Assembly: GCF_010692555.1 (NCBI RefSeq) | Contig: NZ_JAAHHG010000023.1 | Span: forward strand, 24,305 to 65,812 | Direction of reading: 5' to 3' | Length of the DNA: 41,508 nucleotides | Source: Okeania sp. SIO3B5 | GTDB taxonomy: Bacteria > Cyanobacteriota > Cyanobacteriia > Cyanobacteriales > Microcoleaceae | Shown: positions 1-41,508 of the stretch, one piece after another | Layout of the letters: every line of letters begins with the position of its first letter | Position numbering within the stretch: the first letter of the stretch is position 1 | The notes under the pieces: generated by a model | Databases searched by the model: none | What the model saw: the letters and a program-made list of their open reading frames with translations, nothing else | What the model was told of the DNA's origin: nothing | Translations under genes and position numbers: made by a program

Positions 1-865
1 CATCTCGTTCCAAAAGTATTCCGGAACAGAAAAGTCTGCCGAACAATTCTTCCTACTTTCTGTGTTAAGCCAAATTTTTCAGCAGATTTTTTTTGAGATG
101 CTCTGGTTTACCTTTGAGTAACATCTCGTTCTAAAAGTATTCCGGAACAGAAAAATCTCTCGAACAATTCTTCCTACTTTCTGTGTTAAGCCAAATTTTT
201 TTTGAGGCACTCTGGTTTGCCTTTGAGTAACATCTCGTTCCAAAAGTATTCCGGAACAGAAAAGTCTGCCGAACAATTCTTCCTACTTTCTGTGTTAAGC
301 CAAATTTTTCAGCAGATTTTTTTTGAGATGCTCTGGTTTACCTTTGAGTAGCATCTCGTTCCAAAAGTATTCCGGAACAGAAAAGTCTGCCGAACAATTC
401 TTCCTACTTTCTGTGTTAAGCCAAATTTTTCAGCAGATTTTTTTTGAGATGCTCTGGTTTACCTTTGAGTAGCATCTCGTTCCAAAAGTATTCCGGAACA
501 GAAAAGTCTGCCGAACAATTCTTCCTACTTTCTGTGTTAAGCCAAATTTTTCAGCAGATTTTTTTTGAGATGCTCTGGTTTACCTTTGAGTAACATCTCG
601 TTCTAAAAGTATTCCGGAACAGAAAAATCTCTCGAACAATTCTTCCTACTTTCTGTGTTAAGCCAAATTTTTTTTGAGGCACTCTGGTTTGCCTTTGAGT
701 AACATCTCGTTCCAAAAGTATTCCGGAACAGAAAAGTCTGCCGAACAATTCTTCCTACTTTCTGCGTTAAGCCAAATTTTTTTTGAGGCACTCTGGTTTG
801 CCTTTGAGTAACATCTCGTTCCAAAAGTATTCCGGAACAGAAAAATCTCCCGAACAATTATTCCT
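1..865. repeat. Tandem array of 121-bp and 109-bp units
   Basis: Units begin with CATCTCGTTC at 1, 122, 231, 352, 473, 594, 703 and a partial one at 812. Spacings are 121, 109, 121, 121, 121, 109 and 109. The long unit differs from the short one by a 12-bp insert (CAGCAGATTTTT) in a T-rich stretch. Units at 122 and 594 share the same point variants, so a 472-bp block also looks duplicated. Each unit has GTTCC...GGAAC around ATTCCGGAAC, a small hairpin. Neither length is a multiple of three and no strand has a conserved frame, so I regard it as noncoding. It touches the window edge and may continue to the left. Confidence 0.95.
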
Positions 866-9418: not shown

Positions 9419-9660
9419 AATTAGGGCTTGCTGAAAAATTGGTTGGTGGGGGTAGGACACGGGGACGCGGAGACGCGGAGACGCGGAGATGGGGGGACTT
9501 ACCAGACGCAGGGACGCAAAGAGGAGTAAGAATTTTGTCTGCTCAAAATCCTAACTTTTTGAGCATAAAGAACTGAAAACCAGGCACTTTTTCAAGACCT
9601 AAGAAGGCTGAAACTTTTATATGTCAATGCTTTGATAGTTAATCAGCAAGCCCCAATTAG
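9419..9660. mobile_element. Family A MITE-like element, copy 2 (inverted)
   Basis: It begins AATTAGGGCTTGCTGA and ends TCAGCAAGCCCCAATT. The interior matches copy 1 in reverse orientation (GAGCATAAAGAACTG, then CACTTTTTCAAGACC, CTTTTATATGTCAATGC). A GACGCGGAGACGCGGAG microsatellite has expanded inside. No gene is present. Confidence 0.8.
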
Positions 9661-9684
9661 ACGTTGCTGAATTGAGCTATAGAA

Positions 9685-9775
9685 GTCTGCCTAACGTTTG
9701 ATGTCAGCAGCGGAAAAAATCTCTCCAAAAAAGCCCAACTGTCTCGCCAATCTGCTGCACTGAACTTTCGACAAA
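9685..9775 (-). other. attC-like recombination site (tentative)
   Basis: On the minus strand, just beyond the small exported-protein gene, there is an imperfect inverted repeat (GTTCAGTGCAGCAG ... CTGCTGACATCAAAC) ending in CGTTAGGC, which resembles the R' end GTTRRRY of integron attC sites. The opposite core (GTCGAAA) is a poor match to RYYYAAC. A GTTAGAC box lies upstream of the gene at 10396-10402. No integrase is in the window, so this could be chance. Confidence 0.3.
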
Positions 9776-9817
9776 AGAGAAGGCATTTGCCACTCGCCAA
9801 ATTTGCATCGCCTTCTC
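9771..9817 (-). terminator. Hairpin with T-run after the small exported-protein gene
   Basis: Perfect 8-bp arms GAGAAGGC (9777-9784) and GCCTTCTC (9810-9817), with partial pairing inside the 25-nt loop, followed on the minus strand by TTTTGT. It lies 23 bp past the stop codon of 9840-10301, which fits an intrinsic terminator; the long loop makes it only moderately convincing. Confidence 0.55.
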
Positions 9818-9839
9818 CTTGCAAAAAACAGAGATACGA

Positions 9840-10301
9840 TTATTTCTTCGTAACGCCCTGAATACTAGAATAGGGTTGAATCTTAGAGATGAACATTGTA
9901 CCAACATCTCCGTAACATTCAGAGTTAGGCTTGTTAAAGCTATAGACCATACTAATAGCATTGCGATACCTATTTATAACTCCCCTGTTTTTAGCGAAAG
10001 AATCTTCTGGGTTTTCTATAGGAGCTAATTTAAACCTTATAAAGTTGTTGTATTTACCTGACAATTTACCTTTGAAAACTCGCTCCGGGAAACACTTTGT
10101 GTTGCCTATCACCGAGATGCCGGACACATCGTTTCCTTCATTTTTGATGTCCATTTCTACTACACCATTGTAAGTAGGTGCATTTAGGCTAGTCCATGTT
10201 CCTATCCAGTAACCACTAAGATCTCCTTGGGTCTCGGCAGCTCTCACGGGAGAGGAAATTAACAATATTGAAACAAGAAAAATAATTATTGCGCGTATCA
10301 T
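9840..10301 (-). CDS. Small exported protein, function unknown
   Basis: 153 aa. A signal peptide is clear: MIRAIIIFLVSILLI, then SSPVRAAE with an AxA cut at about residue 22. The mature part begins GDLSGYWIGTWTS, like extracellular beta-barrel domains that open with GxWxGxW, and has two or three Cys. A good ribosome site (AAGGAG, 5 bp from ATG) supports the start. GC content appears a little higher than in neighbours. A hairpin terminator and an attC-like end follow. It may be imported; I do not recognise a named family. Confidence 0.75.
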   Translation of the reverse strand: MIRAIIIFLVSILLISSPVRAAETQGDLSGYWIGTWTSLNAPTYNGVVEMDIKNEGNDVSGISVIGNTKCFPERVFKGKLSGKYNNFIRFKLAPIENPEDSFAKNRGVINRYRNAISMVYSFNKPNSECYGDVGTMFISKIQPYSSIQGVTKK

Positions 10302-19247: not shown

Positions 19248-19535
19248 GCGGAAGTCAAAATTCAAAATTCAAAAGTCAAAAGTATTGATTGGTAAAGCTT
19301 TTAGGATTTTGTAACTGGTTAGTTATTTCTGCCATCCTGTACTGCGGAAGTCAAAAATCAAAATTCAAAAGTCAAAAGTATTGATTGGTAAAGCTTTTAG
19401 GATTTTGTAACTGGTTAGTTATTTCTGCCATCCTGTACTGCGGAAGTCAAAAATCAAAATTCAAAAGTCAAAAGTATTGATTGGTAAAGCTTTTAGGATT
19501 TTGTAACTGGTTAGTTATTTCTGCCATCCTGCACT
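19248..19535. repeat. Three tandem copies of a 96-bp unit
   Basis: Units start GCGGAAGTCAAA at 19248, 19344 and 19440, each 96 bp and almost identical, with substitutions only near the ends. The unit contains AAAATTCAAAAGTCAAAAG, AAGCTTTTAGG and CTGGTTAGTTATTTCTGCC. The array begins right after the glyS stop. Though 96 is a multiple of three, each frame is closed by stops, so it is not coding. Low divergence implies recent expansion. Confidence 0.95.
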
Positions 19536-22636: not shown

Positions 22637-23788
22637 ATGGAAGGAAAACAACTATCTTTATTCCCTAATTTAGAGAATAAAAATGATAAAAATCATCATA
22701 AAAAAGCAAAACTAGGACGTTATGAAAAAATTCAATACGAATTAAATAATAATGACAGTGACCCATATAAAAAATTCATTAAAATTGAAGAGAAACCCAT
22801 ATTTAAATCTGATTATAAATTTATCGATTTGTTTTGCGGTGCTGGAGGAATGACACAAGGTTTATTTCAAGCCGGATTTAAACCAATAGCAAGTGTTGAA
22901 GAAAATTTAATAGCATCAGCAACCCATAGAAAAAATTTTCCTACATCTCATCATTTTTGTGGGGATATCAAAGAATTTAATTCTACAGAATGGCTCAATC
23001 AAATTGGTTCACCAGAAATACATTTAGTAGTAGGAGGTCCTCCATGTCAGGGTTTTTCAGTTGCCGGAAAACGTAATCCTGATGACCCTAGAAATAATTT
23101 ATTTCGAGAATTTGTGAGAGTAGTTAATGAAATTAGTCCTTGGTATATTGTTATGGAAAATGTGCCTGGAATTATTACCATGAAAAAAGGTGCTGTTAAA
23201 GCAGAAATTTGCCAAGCATTTATCGATATTGGTTATTCTAATGTATCTGTAGCAATTCTAGAATCTGCTGCTTATGGAATTCCACAAATTCGCCCTAGAA
23301 CTATTTTTATTGCCAATAAATTTGGCATGATAAATCCTTATCCAAAACCTCAACTATTACCCCATCAATATAAACCAATTGAATCAGCAATTTCTGACCT
23401 TCCAGAATTAACTCCGATTCCAGAAATTAATCATCAATGGACTCGGCATTCACAAGAATACATGAAAAGACTTGCTAAAGTGCCTCCTGGTTGTTCTTTA
23501 TATAAAACTTATGCTGATGCTTTTAAACGACAACATTTGGGTAAACCAAGTATGACTATCAAAGAAAATCATGGTGGTACTCATATTCATCCTTACCTTA
23601 ACCGGGTAATTTCAGCAAGAGAAATGGCAAGATTACAAAGTTTTCCTGACTCTTTTATTTTTGAGGGTTCTATGAAAAAAGCGATGTGGCAAATTGGTAA
23701 TGCTGTACCTCCTCGTTTAGCAGAATGTATAGGTTATGCGTTGATTCCTTTTTTAAATAAAATTTCCCTAGAAAATCACAGTAAATAA
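22637..23788 (+). CDS. DNA (cytosine-5) methyltransferase of a type II R-M system
   Basis: 383 aa. All core C5-MTase motifs are present: I (FIDLFCGAGGMTQGL, SAM binding), IV with catalytic Cys137 (GGPPCQGFS), VI (VMENVPG), VIII (RPRTIFIANK), then a short target-recognition region and IX/X (ARLQSFPDSF, QIGNAVPP). N-terminal ~55 residues are basic and asparagine-rich. It is convergent, 3 bp from the stop of the broken endonuclease. No Shine-Dalgarno is seen, because a dispersed repeat ends 6 bp before ATG. The specificity cannot be read by eye. It appears intact and would now act as a solitary methyltransferase. Confidence 0.95.
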   Translation: MEGKQLSLFPNLENKNDKNHHKKAKLGRYEKIQYELNNNDSDPYKKFIKIEEKPIFKSDYKFIDLFCGAGGMTQGLFQAGFKPIASVEENLIASATHRKNFPTSHHFCGDIKEFNSTEWLNQIGSPEIHLVVGGPPCQGFSVAGKRNPDDPRNNLFREFVRVVNEISPWYIVMENVPGIITMKKGAVKAEICQAFIDIGYSNVSVAILESAAYGIPQIRPRTIFIANKFGMINPYPKPQLLPHQYKPIESAISDLPELTPIPEINHQWTRHSQEYMKRLAKVPPGCSLYKTYADAFKRQHLGKPSMTIKENHGGTHIHPYLNRVISAREMARLQSFPDSFIFEGSMKKAMWQIGNAVPPRLAECIGYALIPFLNKISLENHSK

Positions 23789-23791
23789 TAC

Positions 23792-24709
23792 TTAATTATC
23801 CTGTTTAAACTCAGTTAGTTTTTGATTAAGAGTATTTCGCCAAATCTCAAAATTATACCAACCACATCCCACACATCCAGTCTCAGCATCTTTTCCAACT
23901 TGAGGTATATTACGAGGCCAATTTTCATTACCTTCATACCAGAATTTAATGCCTAATGGTGTACCCCTTTTACCAGTTTTAATACAAAATTCACAGCTTC
24001 TTGATTTTAAAAGATTATGATTACCTCCACTATCTTTTTTAAGCAATTGAAATTTTTGTTTAATCTCAGTTTCACTCATATTTAAGTTATGAGTTTCTTC
24101 AACATTTCCCCATCTTTCCATTGGAAAACGATGGTCAATAAAAATTTCATGTCGCGGTCGTTGTCTTTGTTCAATCACGTCTACATACGAATAAACAGAT
24201 AATATTTTTTCGACTAATTCAGAGGGAATATTAGCAGGAGCATTTGCTGCTTTAATTTGTAAGCATTCAGCTATTAGTTGTCAGCTCTCAGCAAAAAAAA
24301 AGGGGGGTTAATGAATATAAACTGTTTCAGACAGCTTTTATAGTAAGTATAAGTTATGACTCAATCAGCTATTGCTTTTATCTAAAATTAAAAGCAATAG
24401 CTGATTGCTGATTGCTGACGGCTGAATGCTTACTTTAATTTTTCCTGTCCAACAATCCCATATTGTTTGTTTTTGACAAGTATTGCAGAACTTTCTTTCC
24501 GTTTTAATTTCTAAACCAGGGCGACTTTTTGTGCCTCTTTGTAATCCTTGAATACCACCTCCACCTGCATATTGTTCTGATGCTAAGTTTTTACCTTCAC
24601 AACTACGACAATGCCATTCTCTATCTCATAAAAGATTAAATACTTTTAATTGAGTTGAGTTTTTTCTAAATGTAGATTTTAACTTTTCTACTAAGTCTTG
24701 ATTGCTCAC
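23792..24709 (-). pseudogene. Broken HNH-type restriction endonuclease
   Basis: Starts at GTG 24709, overlapping the C-gene stop by 4 bp (GTGA). Codon 28 is TGA (24626-24628), followed by REWHCRSCEGKNLASEQY and KFCNTCQKQTIWDCW. A 175-bp element at 24259-24433 then splits it. Deleting that element and one 8-bp duplicate joins TGKIK to AANAPANIPSELVEK in frame, giving a 244-aa product. HNH-like features are RPRHEIFIDHRFPMERWG and NHNLLKSRSCEFC; CxxC pairs and GCVGCGW suggest Zn sites. Position and overlap with C make it the cognate restriction enzyme; that role is inferred. The 128-codon tail from GTG 24178 remains open. Confidence 0.88.
24259..24433. mobile_element. Family B MITE inside the endonuclease gene, 8-bp target duplication
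   Basis: Ends GTAAGCATTCAGC and GCTGAATGCTTAC; TTTAATTT flanks it on both sides (24251-24258 and 24434-24441). The interior has AGCTATTGCTTTTA in mirrored form and no gene. Removing element plus one flank restores the host reading frame, showing it is a real insertion and not original sequence. Confidence 0.95.
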
Positions 24710-24954
24710 TCTATATTATTAGCTTCTGCCTCTAAATTATCAAGAAGTTCTGATACACTAATACCCATTCCGCCAGCTAAACTAACAAGAGCAGTTAGAG
24801 AAGGATTTCTCACACCACGTTCTAGTCCAGATATATAGGTACGATCTAACTTAGATCTAAATCCAAGCTCTTCTTGAGAAATTCCTAATTTCATCCGACG
24901 TTGTTTAATCAAACGACTAAGGGCAGTCAGAATCTAACTTTTTGATTTATCCAT
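24706..24954 (-). pseudogene. C-type controller (HTH_3) gene with early stop
   Basis: Small Xre-like regulator of the R-M controller kind: RLIKQRRMKLGISQEELG, then SKLDRTYISGLERGVRNPSL and VSELLDNLE. Controller proteins of ~80 aa bind a C-box and time endonuclease expression after methylation. From ATG 24954 the frame gives 82 codons but TAG at codon 7 (24934-24936) interrupts it; a TTG at 24912 could still make 68 aa retaining most of the HTH. The ATG lies just downstream of the C-box, which favours it as the ancestral start. Its stop overlaps the endonuclease start, the usual C.R operon arrangement. Confidence 0.85.
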
Positions 24955-24973
24955 ACCCTAGATTTTGATGATT

Positions 24974-25007
24974 TGTGGATTATCAGTCTACGGACTATGT
25001 GTCACAT
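24974..25007 (-). promoter_or_regulatory. Double C-box operator of the R-M controller
   Basis: On the minus strand the order is GACA-CAT-AGTC-CGTA-GACT-GAT-AATC, i.e. two half-site pairs of the GACT-N3-AGTC consensus separated by 4 bp with two mismatches, preceded by ATGT. From memory it resembles the Esp1396I-type operator closely. It ends about 20 bp upstream of the C gene ATG (24954), which fits an autoregulated promoter. Confidence 0.85.
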
Positions 25008-25062: not shown

Positions 25063-25330
25063 ATGACTCAAGCAATTAGTCAAGAAAAAACTATTTTAGA
25101 AAGTCTAAAAAAATTAACTCCTCAACAACAACAGGAGGTTTTAGATTTTATTGAATTTTTGCATAGTAAAAGCCAAAAGATAGAAACTCCTCCCCCTGAA
25201 AAAAAAACCAATATCTGCTTATGAAGCTGCTAAACAATGGGTTGGTTGTGTTGATAGTGGCATAGGGGATTTATCCTATAATAAATAAAAAGTACCTTGA
25301 GAGACCTTTAGCTAAATTAAATTTAAAGTA
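25063..25330 (+). pseudogene. Duplicate antitoxin copy, frameshifted, toxin lost
   Basis: Nearly identical to the intact antitoxin at 25412 (MTQAISQEKTILESLKK, then LTPQQQQEVLDFIEFLH). A 9-A run near 25199-25207 replaces the 8-A run of the intact copy, so the frame ends at 25224 after 53 codons; the remaining sequence still aligns to SAYEAAKQWVGCVDSG in another frame. After it, AAATTTAAAGTAATTTA matches the first bases of the toxin gene and then stops. Tandem duplication followed by toxin loss is the simple reading. Confidence 0.9.
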
Positions 25331-25411: not shown

Positions 25412-25663
25412 ATGACTCAAGCAGTTAGTTACGAACAAATAATTTTAGAAAACGTAAAAATATTAACTCCTCAACAACAACAGGAAGTTTTAGATTTTAT
25501 TGAATTTTTGCATAGTAAAAACCAGAAGATAGAAACTCCTAACCCTGAAAAAAAACCAATATCTGCTTATGAAGCTGCTAAACAATGGGTTGGTTGCGTT
25601 GATAGTGGTATTGGGGATTTATCTTATAATAAAAAGTACCTTGAGAGACCTTCAGCTAAATGA
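25412..25663 (+). CDS. DUF2281/VapB-like antitoxin
   Basis: 83 aa. The core LTPQQQQEVLDFIEFLHSK is the DUF2281 helix found in many cyanobacterial antitoxins of PIN toxins, followed by a proline-rich linker and an ISAYEAAKQWVGCVDSGIGD tail that likely contacts the toxin. Its TGA overlaps the toxin ATG by 4 bp (25660-25663), the usual translationally coupled layout. A frameshifted duplicate lies 350 bp upstream. Confidence 0.85.
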   Translation: MTQAVSYEQIILENVKILTPQQQQEVLDFIEFLHSKNQKIETPNPEKKPISAYEAAKQWVGCVDSGIGDLSYNKKYLERPSAK

Positions 25664-26082
25664 AATTTAAAGTAATTTTAGACACAAGTCCATTAGTTGC
25701 CTTGATAGATAAAGGCGATCGCTTTCATAATTGGACAACAGAAATGTGGAAAACCATTAGTTTGCCATTGTATACCTGTGAAGCTGTGATTTCTGAAACC
25801 TGTTTTTTGCTACAAAATATCTATGGCGGAGAGGAAGCGGTAATTTCTTTAGTAAAAGCGGGCGTTATCCAAATTTCATTTGTCCTAACCGAAGAAATAG
25901 AGGCAGTAGGAAACTTGATGAAAAAATACCAATCTGTTCCTATGTCTTTTGCAGATGCTTGTTTAGTACGAATGAGTGAATTAATTCCTGGCAGTAGTTT
26001 GTTAACTTTAGATAGTGATTTTCGTATTTACCGGAAAAATCAAACAGAAGTAATTGATGTAATTATTCCTGATGAGTTATAA
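25660..26082 (+). CDS. PIN-domain toxin, VapC-like ribonuclease
   Basis: 140 aa, full PIN length. Acidic metal-site residues are in place: D8 (VILDTSPLVALID), E46 (AVISETCFLL), D in MSFADACLVRM (about 98) and D in TLDSDFRIY (about 118). Expected to cleave RNA when freed from the antitoxin directly upstream. A HIP1 site occurs inside. The downstream membrane-protein gene begins 8 bp later, but functional linkage is unlikely. Confidence 0.92.
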   Translation: MKFKVILDTSPLVALIDKGDRFHNWTTEMWKTISLPLYTCEAVISETCFLLQNIYGGEEAVISLVKAGVIQISFVLTEEIEAVGNLMKKYQSVPMSFADACLVRMSELIPGSSLLTLDSDFRIYRKNQTEVIDVIIPDEL

Positions 26083-41366: not shown

Positions 41367-41508
41367 GTATCTATAACGTTATAGTTTTTCAACGCTATAT
41401 ATTATATTCAGGAGTTAGGCATTTTTGGGTCTCAAACACTATGTATCTATAACGTTATAGTTTTTCAACGCTATATATTATATTCAGGAGTTAGGCATTT
41501 TTGGGTCT
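41367..41508. repeat. Two copies of a 76-bp tandem unit with a perfect palindrome
   Basis: 41367-41432 and 41443-41508 are identical over 66 bp; the period is 76. Each holds CTATAACGTTATAG, a perfect 14-bp palindrome, and ATTCAGGAGTTAGGCATTTT. The second copy runs to the window end, so the array length is unknown. Confidence 0.9.

Follow-up and report, generated by a model that had tools for sequence, protein, structure and literature searches.

The window, by which we mean the whole 41,508-nucleotide stretch of Okeania sp. SIO3B5 DNA that was analyzed, almost certainly harbors a decayed controller-endonuclease gene pair beside a methyltransferase gene that is still open. The explanation that we consider probable is that a type II system of controller (C), endonuclease (R) and methyltransferase (M), resident at a fixed chromosomal site, is in the course of decay, and that this decay extends to M itself, which in this genome appears to be drifting at a near-neutral rate. 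Taken by itself, the window holds an ordinary decayed restriction-modification (R-M) locus; it is the relatives, caught at different stages, that make so common a form of gene decay unusually accessible to study.

The genes of the locus and their lesions

M (positions 22637–23788, plus strand; 383 aa) is open and matches the Pfam DNA_methylase profile (E = 6.2e-67) and PADLOC MTase_II (PDLC03234; E = 4.2e-117). It contains, in this order, FCGAGG, GPPCQ, ENV, QIRPR, REMARLQSFPD and GNAVPP, which we take to be the motifs of a C5 cytosine DNA methyltransferase; PCQ, ENV and QxRxR are among them. Tail to tail with M, and separated from it by 3 bp, lies the R pseudogene (23792–24709, minus strand; GTG start at 24709). 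Separate genes assigned to REase_II and MTase_II adjoin in this way in the relatives, too. The controller gene (24706–24954, minus strand; 82 codons and a stop) is a small HTH gene 5′ of R, and its stop overlaps the R start; it matches HTH_3 (2.5e-14) and PADLOC Control_protein (4e-16). An intact C5 methyltransferase convergent on an operon of C gene and endonuclease is what the initial annotation had proposed, and the profile matches (Pfam and PADLOC) and coordinates bear this out.

Upstream of C is a C-box-like double operator, GACACATAGTC-CGTA-GACTGATAATC (24978–25003, minus strand), designated by its likeness to the Esp1396I OL sequence. Its outer triplets, GAC/GTC and GAC/ATC, are kept in all eight copies that have the region, that of the window included. 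A promoter scan 5′ of C returned one site, against a chance mean of 0.7, and was given no weight. In PMC3758141, the Esp1396I operator is given as ATGTGACTTATAGTC with a preceding TG; PMC2997769 describes C stop and R start codons that lie near each other or overlap as usual in C-controlled systems. As these papers (PMC3758141, PMC2997769) describe them, Esp1396I and PvuII resemble the present locus in that C precedes R, the stop of the one lying only a few bases from the start of the other, and in that the double operator has the form GAC...GTC and follows a TG. They differ from it in that C and R are dead here. By analogy with known C systems, the controller of an intact system would bind the C-box and would activate both its own gene and R at a late stage, once the target has been methylated by M.

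Three lesions were found, each of them where the initial annotation had placed it. C has a TAG at codon 7 (24934–24936, minus strand), R has a TGA at codon 28 (24626–24628, minus strand), and R is further interrupted by a 175-bp mobile element (24259–24433) between two exact 8-bp copies of the target-site duplication TTTAATTT (24251–24258 and 24434–24441). This insertion is a MITE: it is short, has terminal inverted repeats (beginning GTAAGCATTCAGC) and a target duplication, lacks coding capacity and belongs to a family with many copies in the genome. A search of the window genome returned 52 matching places, the present copy included (40 were scored out of 668 candidates), and the exact 8-bp duplication was seen at 13 of the 30 loci examined, again counting the present copy and two loci (L013 and L020) that overlap on one contig. 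As single-stranded DNA, the element folds far better than shuffled sequences do (z = −8.8). An IS66-type parent transposase, which we had presumed from the ends of the element and the 8-bp duplication, was unsupported; its single match fell below the cut-off (21.9 vs. 23.1 bits).

Once the element and one duplicate (183 bp, or 61 codons) are removed, the coding parts of R sum to 92 + 152 = 244 codons. The two pieces match PADLOC REase_II (PDLC03537) contiguously, at model positions 4–90 (E = 1.7e-37, with the TGA translated as a residue) and 95–242 (E = 6.5e-77), and Okeania SIO1I7 has an open R homologue of 244 codons. The restored 244-aa frame of the initial annotation thus stands; the HNH label attached to it had neither a profile nor a fold match. 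R gave no above-threshold match to Pfam, NCBIfam or PDB sequences (the PDB was searched both with the 152-aa piece and with the alignment), and an AlphaFold model made from 15 relatives was weak (pLDDT 69) and had no significant match among PDB folds. The conservation of two segments, DHRFP and NHNLLKSRSC, allows a motif-level guess that R is an HNH endonuclease. Two of the 15 R relatives resembled Pfam ICEA (PF05315) below its cut-off (best E = 7.3e-5; 22.9 vs. 24 bits), which R itself did not reach, and the window genome had no ICEA match at E ≤ 0.001.

No second copy of R was found in the window genome when it was searched with the 152-aa piece. Among 72,556 plasmid records, the R piece matched only a single Methanosphaera plasmid, which is present in two versions (45% identity, 39% of the query); phage records gave no match. 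An uncultured Ruminococcus contig (L123) carries a relative of R that is open (56% overall, 60% across the piece used as query), from which the endonuclease family appears to be widely spread.

The locus is syntenic across those copies whose contigs reach far enough: murD/Uma2-like genes flank it at one end, DUF2281-PIN genes at the other. In the window, the DUF2281 antitoxin-like gene occurs twice on the plus strand. The first copy (25063–25224), recognized by eye, is shortened by one extra base in a run of A, and the second (25412–25663), recognized by Pfam, is open and precedes a PIN toxin-like gene (25660–26082). Tandem repeats were also observed: units of about 230 bp at the start of the window (1–865; 3.8 copies, 90% matches), a 96-bp repeat present three times (98% alike) between the glyS-like and murD-like genes (19248–19535), and an exact 76-bp duplication at the end of the window (41367–41508; 1.9 copies, 100%).

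Decay of the locus among relatives

Nine copies of the locus were compared, eight of them from relatives: O. hirsuta, SIO2C9, SIO2B3 and SIO1I7 in the same genus (g1; G040–G043), SIO3I5, SIO2F4 and Hydrocoleum CS-953 in genus g11, and MO_207.B10 in genus g5. Among these copies, the three lesions are private to the window genome. Neither the TAG at C codon 7 nor the TGA at R codon 28 occurs in any of the seven relatives that can be aligned there, all of which have sense codons; in the eighth, MO_207.B10, the stretch with both stop positions is unrelated sequence. The site of the element is empty, with one duplicate, in all eight (BLAST and alignment). Shared lesions, or the lack of a homologue across the insertion junction, had been named as findings that would speak against the initial annotation, and neither was encountered. 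Because all three lesions are private, their order in this genome is not readable.

Strains with an intact operon, which the initial annotation had suggested looking for, do exist, as C, R and M are all open at the syntenic locus in SIO1I7 and SIO3I5. C and R are open in CS-953, whose contig ends nearby and in whose assembly M was not found at E ≤ 1e-80. M is open and R broken in three copies. In the window genome, where the open M is solitary beside its broken partner, C is broken as well; in SIO2F4, R has five stops, C is open, and M has an open 372-aa frame, its first 13 codons being unalignable; and in MO_207.B10, C and the 5′ end of R have been replaced by unrelated sequence that offers no in-frame start. 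Both R and M are broken in O. hirsuta (two R stops by alignment, one of them within an inserted stretch; one M stop; C cut near its end, at codon 77), in SIO2C9 (five R stops and a replaced stretch; two stops and a 1-base insertion in M; C start lost and one base missing) and in SIO2B3 (R interrupted by two insertions; M largely missing; C open). The SIO2B3 insertions (L100; approximately 9464–9589, ~125 bp, and 9680–9935, ~255 bp) are at other places in R than the MITE, and R has therefore been hit by insertions more than once.

Overall, R is open in three of the nine copies and broken in six, that of the window genome included. Of the eight copies whose M was assessable, three have it broken, and in all three R is broken too; within genus g1, the broken copies number four of five for R and three of five for M. 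As part of the explanation that we consider probable, restriction was lost first in the Okeania group, and modification afterwards.

Simple descent followed by decay nonetheless appears to be too simple an account. Between genera, dS is 0.55–0.74 for three flanking genes, 0.22–0.27 for M, 0.09–0.13 for R and 0.05–0.15 for C. The low values for the cassette compared with those of its flanks indicate that it was swapped between genera, at one and the same site, when the hosts had already separated, presumably by homologous recombination.

The near-neutral fate of M has to be weighed against the possibility, in our estimation an unlikely one, that M was adopted in this genome as a working orphan and is selected here as an epigenetic mark or as protection against re-entry of the system. 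M is, after all, full length and retains its C5 motifs while its neighbors carry three lesions, and in genus g9 solitary members of this M family are under constraint (see below). The changes on its own branch argue the other way. Polarized with three outgroups, with 13 ambiguous positions set aside, they amount to N 12 and S 5, near the computed neutral expectation of 2.7–3.6 to 1; the branch of the intact sister, SIO1I7, polarized with the same number of outgroups, has N 5 and S 11. The difference between the two branches (Fisher's test, p = 0.038) is to be read in the knowledge that the counts are small (17 vs. 16 changes) and that recombination could distort them. The branches of two dead M genes have ratios of 13:6 (O. 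hirsuta) and 13:3 (SIO2C9), plus one polarized stop each, with 14 and 15 ambiguous positions, respectively, and the counts for the window M do not differ from those for O. hirsuta (Fisher's test, p = 1). A point against near-neutral change is that pairwise omega against three intact outgroup copies is only mildly raised for the window M, at 0.24–0.27; SIO1I7 M gives 0.14–0.21 against the same three. The genus itself, on the other hand, speaks against adoption: it has four other genomes, and three of these have a dead M.

On these small counts, M of the window genome looks as though it evolves like the dead copies, near neutrality, and the gene resembles a leftover more than it does an adopted orphan. 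The decayed controller-regulated type II system of the initial annotation is thus upheld as regards dead C and R and an open M. That this M has turned into a stable orphan is not supported, given the 12:5 ratio and the three broken M genes among the eight assessable copies. On its own branch, R has acquired N 2 and S 3 besides the stop, and it therefore died recently; because this death is too recent to show drift, M has had little time. It could have retained the ability to methylate.

Under the decay explanation, the controller in this genome ends at codon 7 and R is doubly dead, by the stop at codon 28 and by the MITE, leaving M still open, changing at about the neutral rate and probably no longer selected. 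With C truncated and R doubly dead, no restriction is expected, and the ability to cut has presumably been lost; a shortened C might still arise from a downstream start. That R and C are instead expressed in an altered form (by readthrough, from an internal start or as a split protein), so that the locus is not dead, strikes us as very improbable: an open frame of 128 aa that includes the conserved DHRFP region does persist downstream of the element, but the insertion by itself brings four in-frame stops into R, and the arrangement occurs in none of the eight relatives. The stops can hardly be artefacts of sequencing or binning either, draft though the genome is (11.06 Mb in 789 contigs), for the 175-bp insertion has an exact duplication and comes from a genome-wide family, neither of the two substitutions is in M, and other genomes carry separate R lesions.

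Solitary methyltransferases in genus g9

Across 61 genomes of the same family, M was detected in 39 (E ≤ 1e-80) and R in 24 (E ≤ 1e-3, with the 152-aa piece). Genus g9 has M in 20 of its 29 genomes and R in five, and 15 of the 20 M-bearing genomes are without detectable R; most of these assemblies are drafts and several are incomplete (G015, 74%), such that some R genes may have been missed. G039 is a single-contig genome of this genus. Full-length R searched against 14 of the 15 solitary loci, with flanks of up to 1.5 kb, gave a best E of 0.36, and in five 19-kb stretches the best E was 0.76.

The solitary g9 M genes have a median pairwise omega of 0.116 (91 pairs from 14 genomes; range 0.054–0.314), and the paired ones have an omega of 0.11 (six pairs from four genomes, G031 with its partial M being left out). 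Two of the 14 solitary genes contain one in-frame stop each, at codons 44 and 45. The loci with and without R occupy one site: downstream flanks are common to 14 of the 15 loci given, and in the fifteenth (G014), whose contig ends, it is the upstream flanks that are common. On a tree of 34 rows, from which genomes with a partial M or no locus were left out and on which gains and losses were not distinguished, the solitary state requires five changes, and at least three of these changes are forced by well-supported branches. The explanation that we consider probable accordingly includes g9 M genes without detectable R that appear to be kept under purifying selection at one conserved locus. A second, partial M copy (residues 234–379; 84% identical) was observed in the single-contig genome G038 (C1:3762691–3763128, within L114), where it adjoins open R and M.

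A broader reading, which we advance tentatively and at slightly less than even chances, is that one M family has met two opposite fates after endonuclease loss: in the Okeania group, recombination brings the cassette to a fixed site, where it then dies, R before M, and the g9 gene, at another fixed site, is under full purifying selection and has been domesticated. If this is true, the pair of loci would constitute a replicated natural experiment on when selfish R-M systems turn into genes of the host. The death of R-M systems and the conservation of solitary methyltransferases have been argued mostly from scattered cases. Here, close relatives carry the same system in intact, R-dead and fully dead form, another genus keeps a solitary M, and selection on solitary methylation could therefore be tested by methylome mapping in a handful of strains.

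Candidate targets and known systems

Two leads to the target of M were followed. CATG was taken from a target-recognition segment of Mollicute M proteins and from the weak ICEA similarity of R, and CTGCAG from AplI, whose methyltransferase, M.AplI, is a C5 enzyme. Neither lead is backed by site counts. CTGCAG was absent from ~92 kb taken from g9 genomes that lack M (0 observed vs. 23.8 expected), and its scarcity thus does not follow M. For CATG, the observed/expected ratio ranged from 0.56 to 0.81 among g9 groups and from 0.89 to 0.93 among g10 groups, with no consistent link to M.

The closest parallel for the decay of R is H. pylori iceA1, which encodes an NlaIII-like endonuclease and has an adjoining methyltransferase; the locus here differs in its controller gene and C-box and in the C5 class of its M. 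In iceA1, too, the endonuclease gene is often decayed: PMC3261200 reports that the frame is full length in 10 of 49 iceA1 strains, and for the target its text writes CTAG where the title of its reference has CATG. Decay of an endonuclease gene is therefore already known, notably from iceA1, and the value of the present case lies in the replicated comparison rather than in a new kind of system. AplI of Arthrospira platensis is likewise a type II system, from a filamentous cyanobacterium that is related to the present one (PMC5741684). Solitary (orphan) methyltransferases, as reviewed in PMC12707154, are modification enzymes conserved in lineages without their partner; M of the window genome bears no clear sign of such selection, whereas g9 M does. 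Judged by titles and abstracts, none of the papers retrieved on orphan or solitary methyltransferases (with pseudogenes, cyanobacteria or selfishness) or on Okeania R-M systems concerns this locus.

A link to UpaP162 (Ureaplasma; CATG) and its relatives in other Mollicutes is the KENHGG segment in the target-recognition region of M. Of six M proteins from the plasmid collection that were compared, only two have this segment in common with M here; both are encoded beside annotated UpaP162-family endonucleases, and they are identical at 62 and 52 of 123 positions. The M. hyorhinis endonuclease showed no similarity to R. For Ureaplasma UPV229, PMC6191088 argues for an m6A product. We infer that UPV229 is probably the same kind of methyltransferase as M here.
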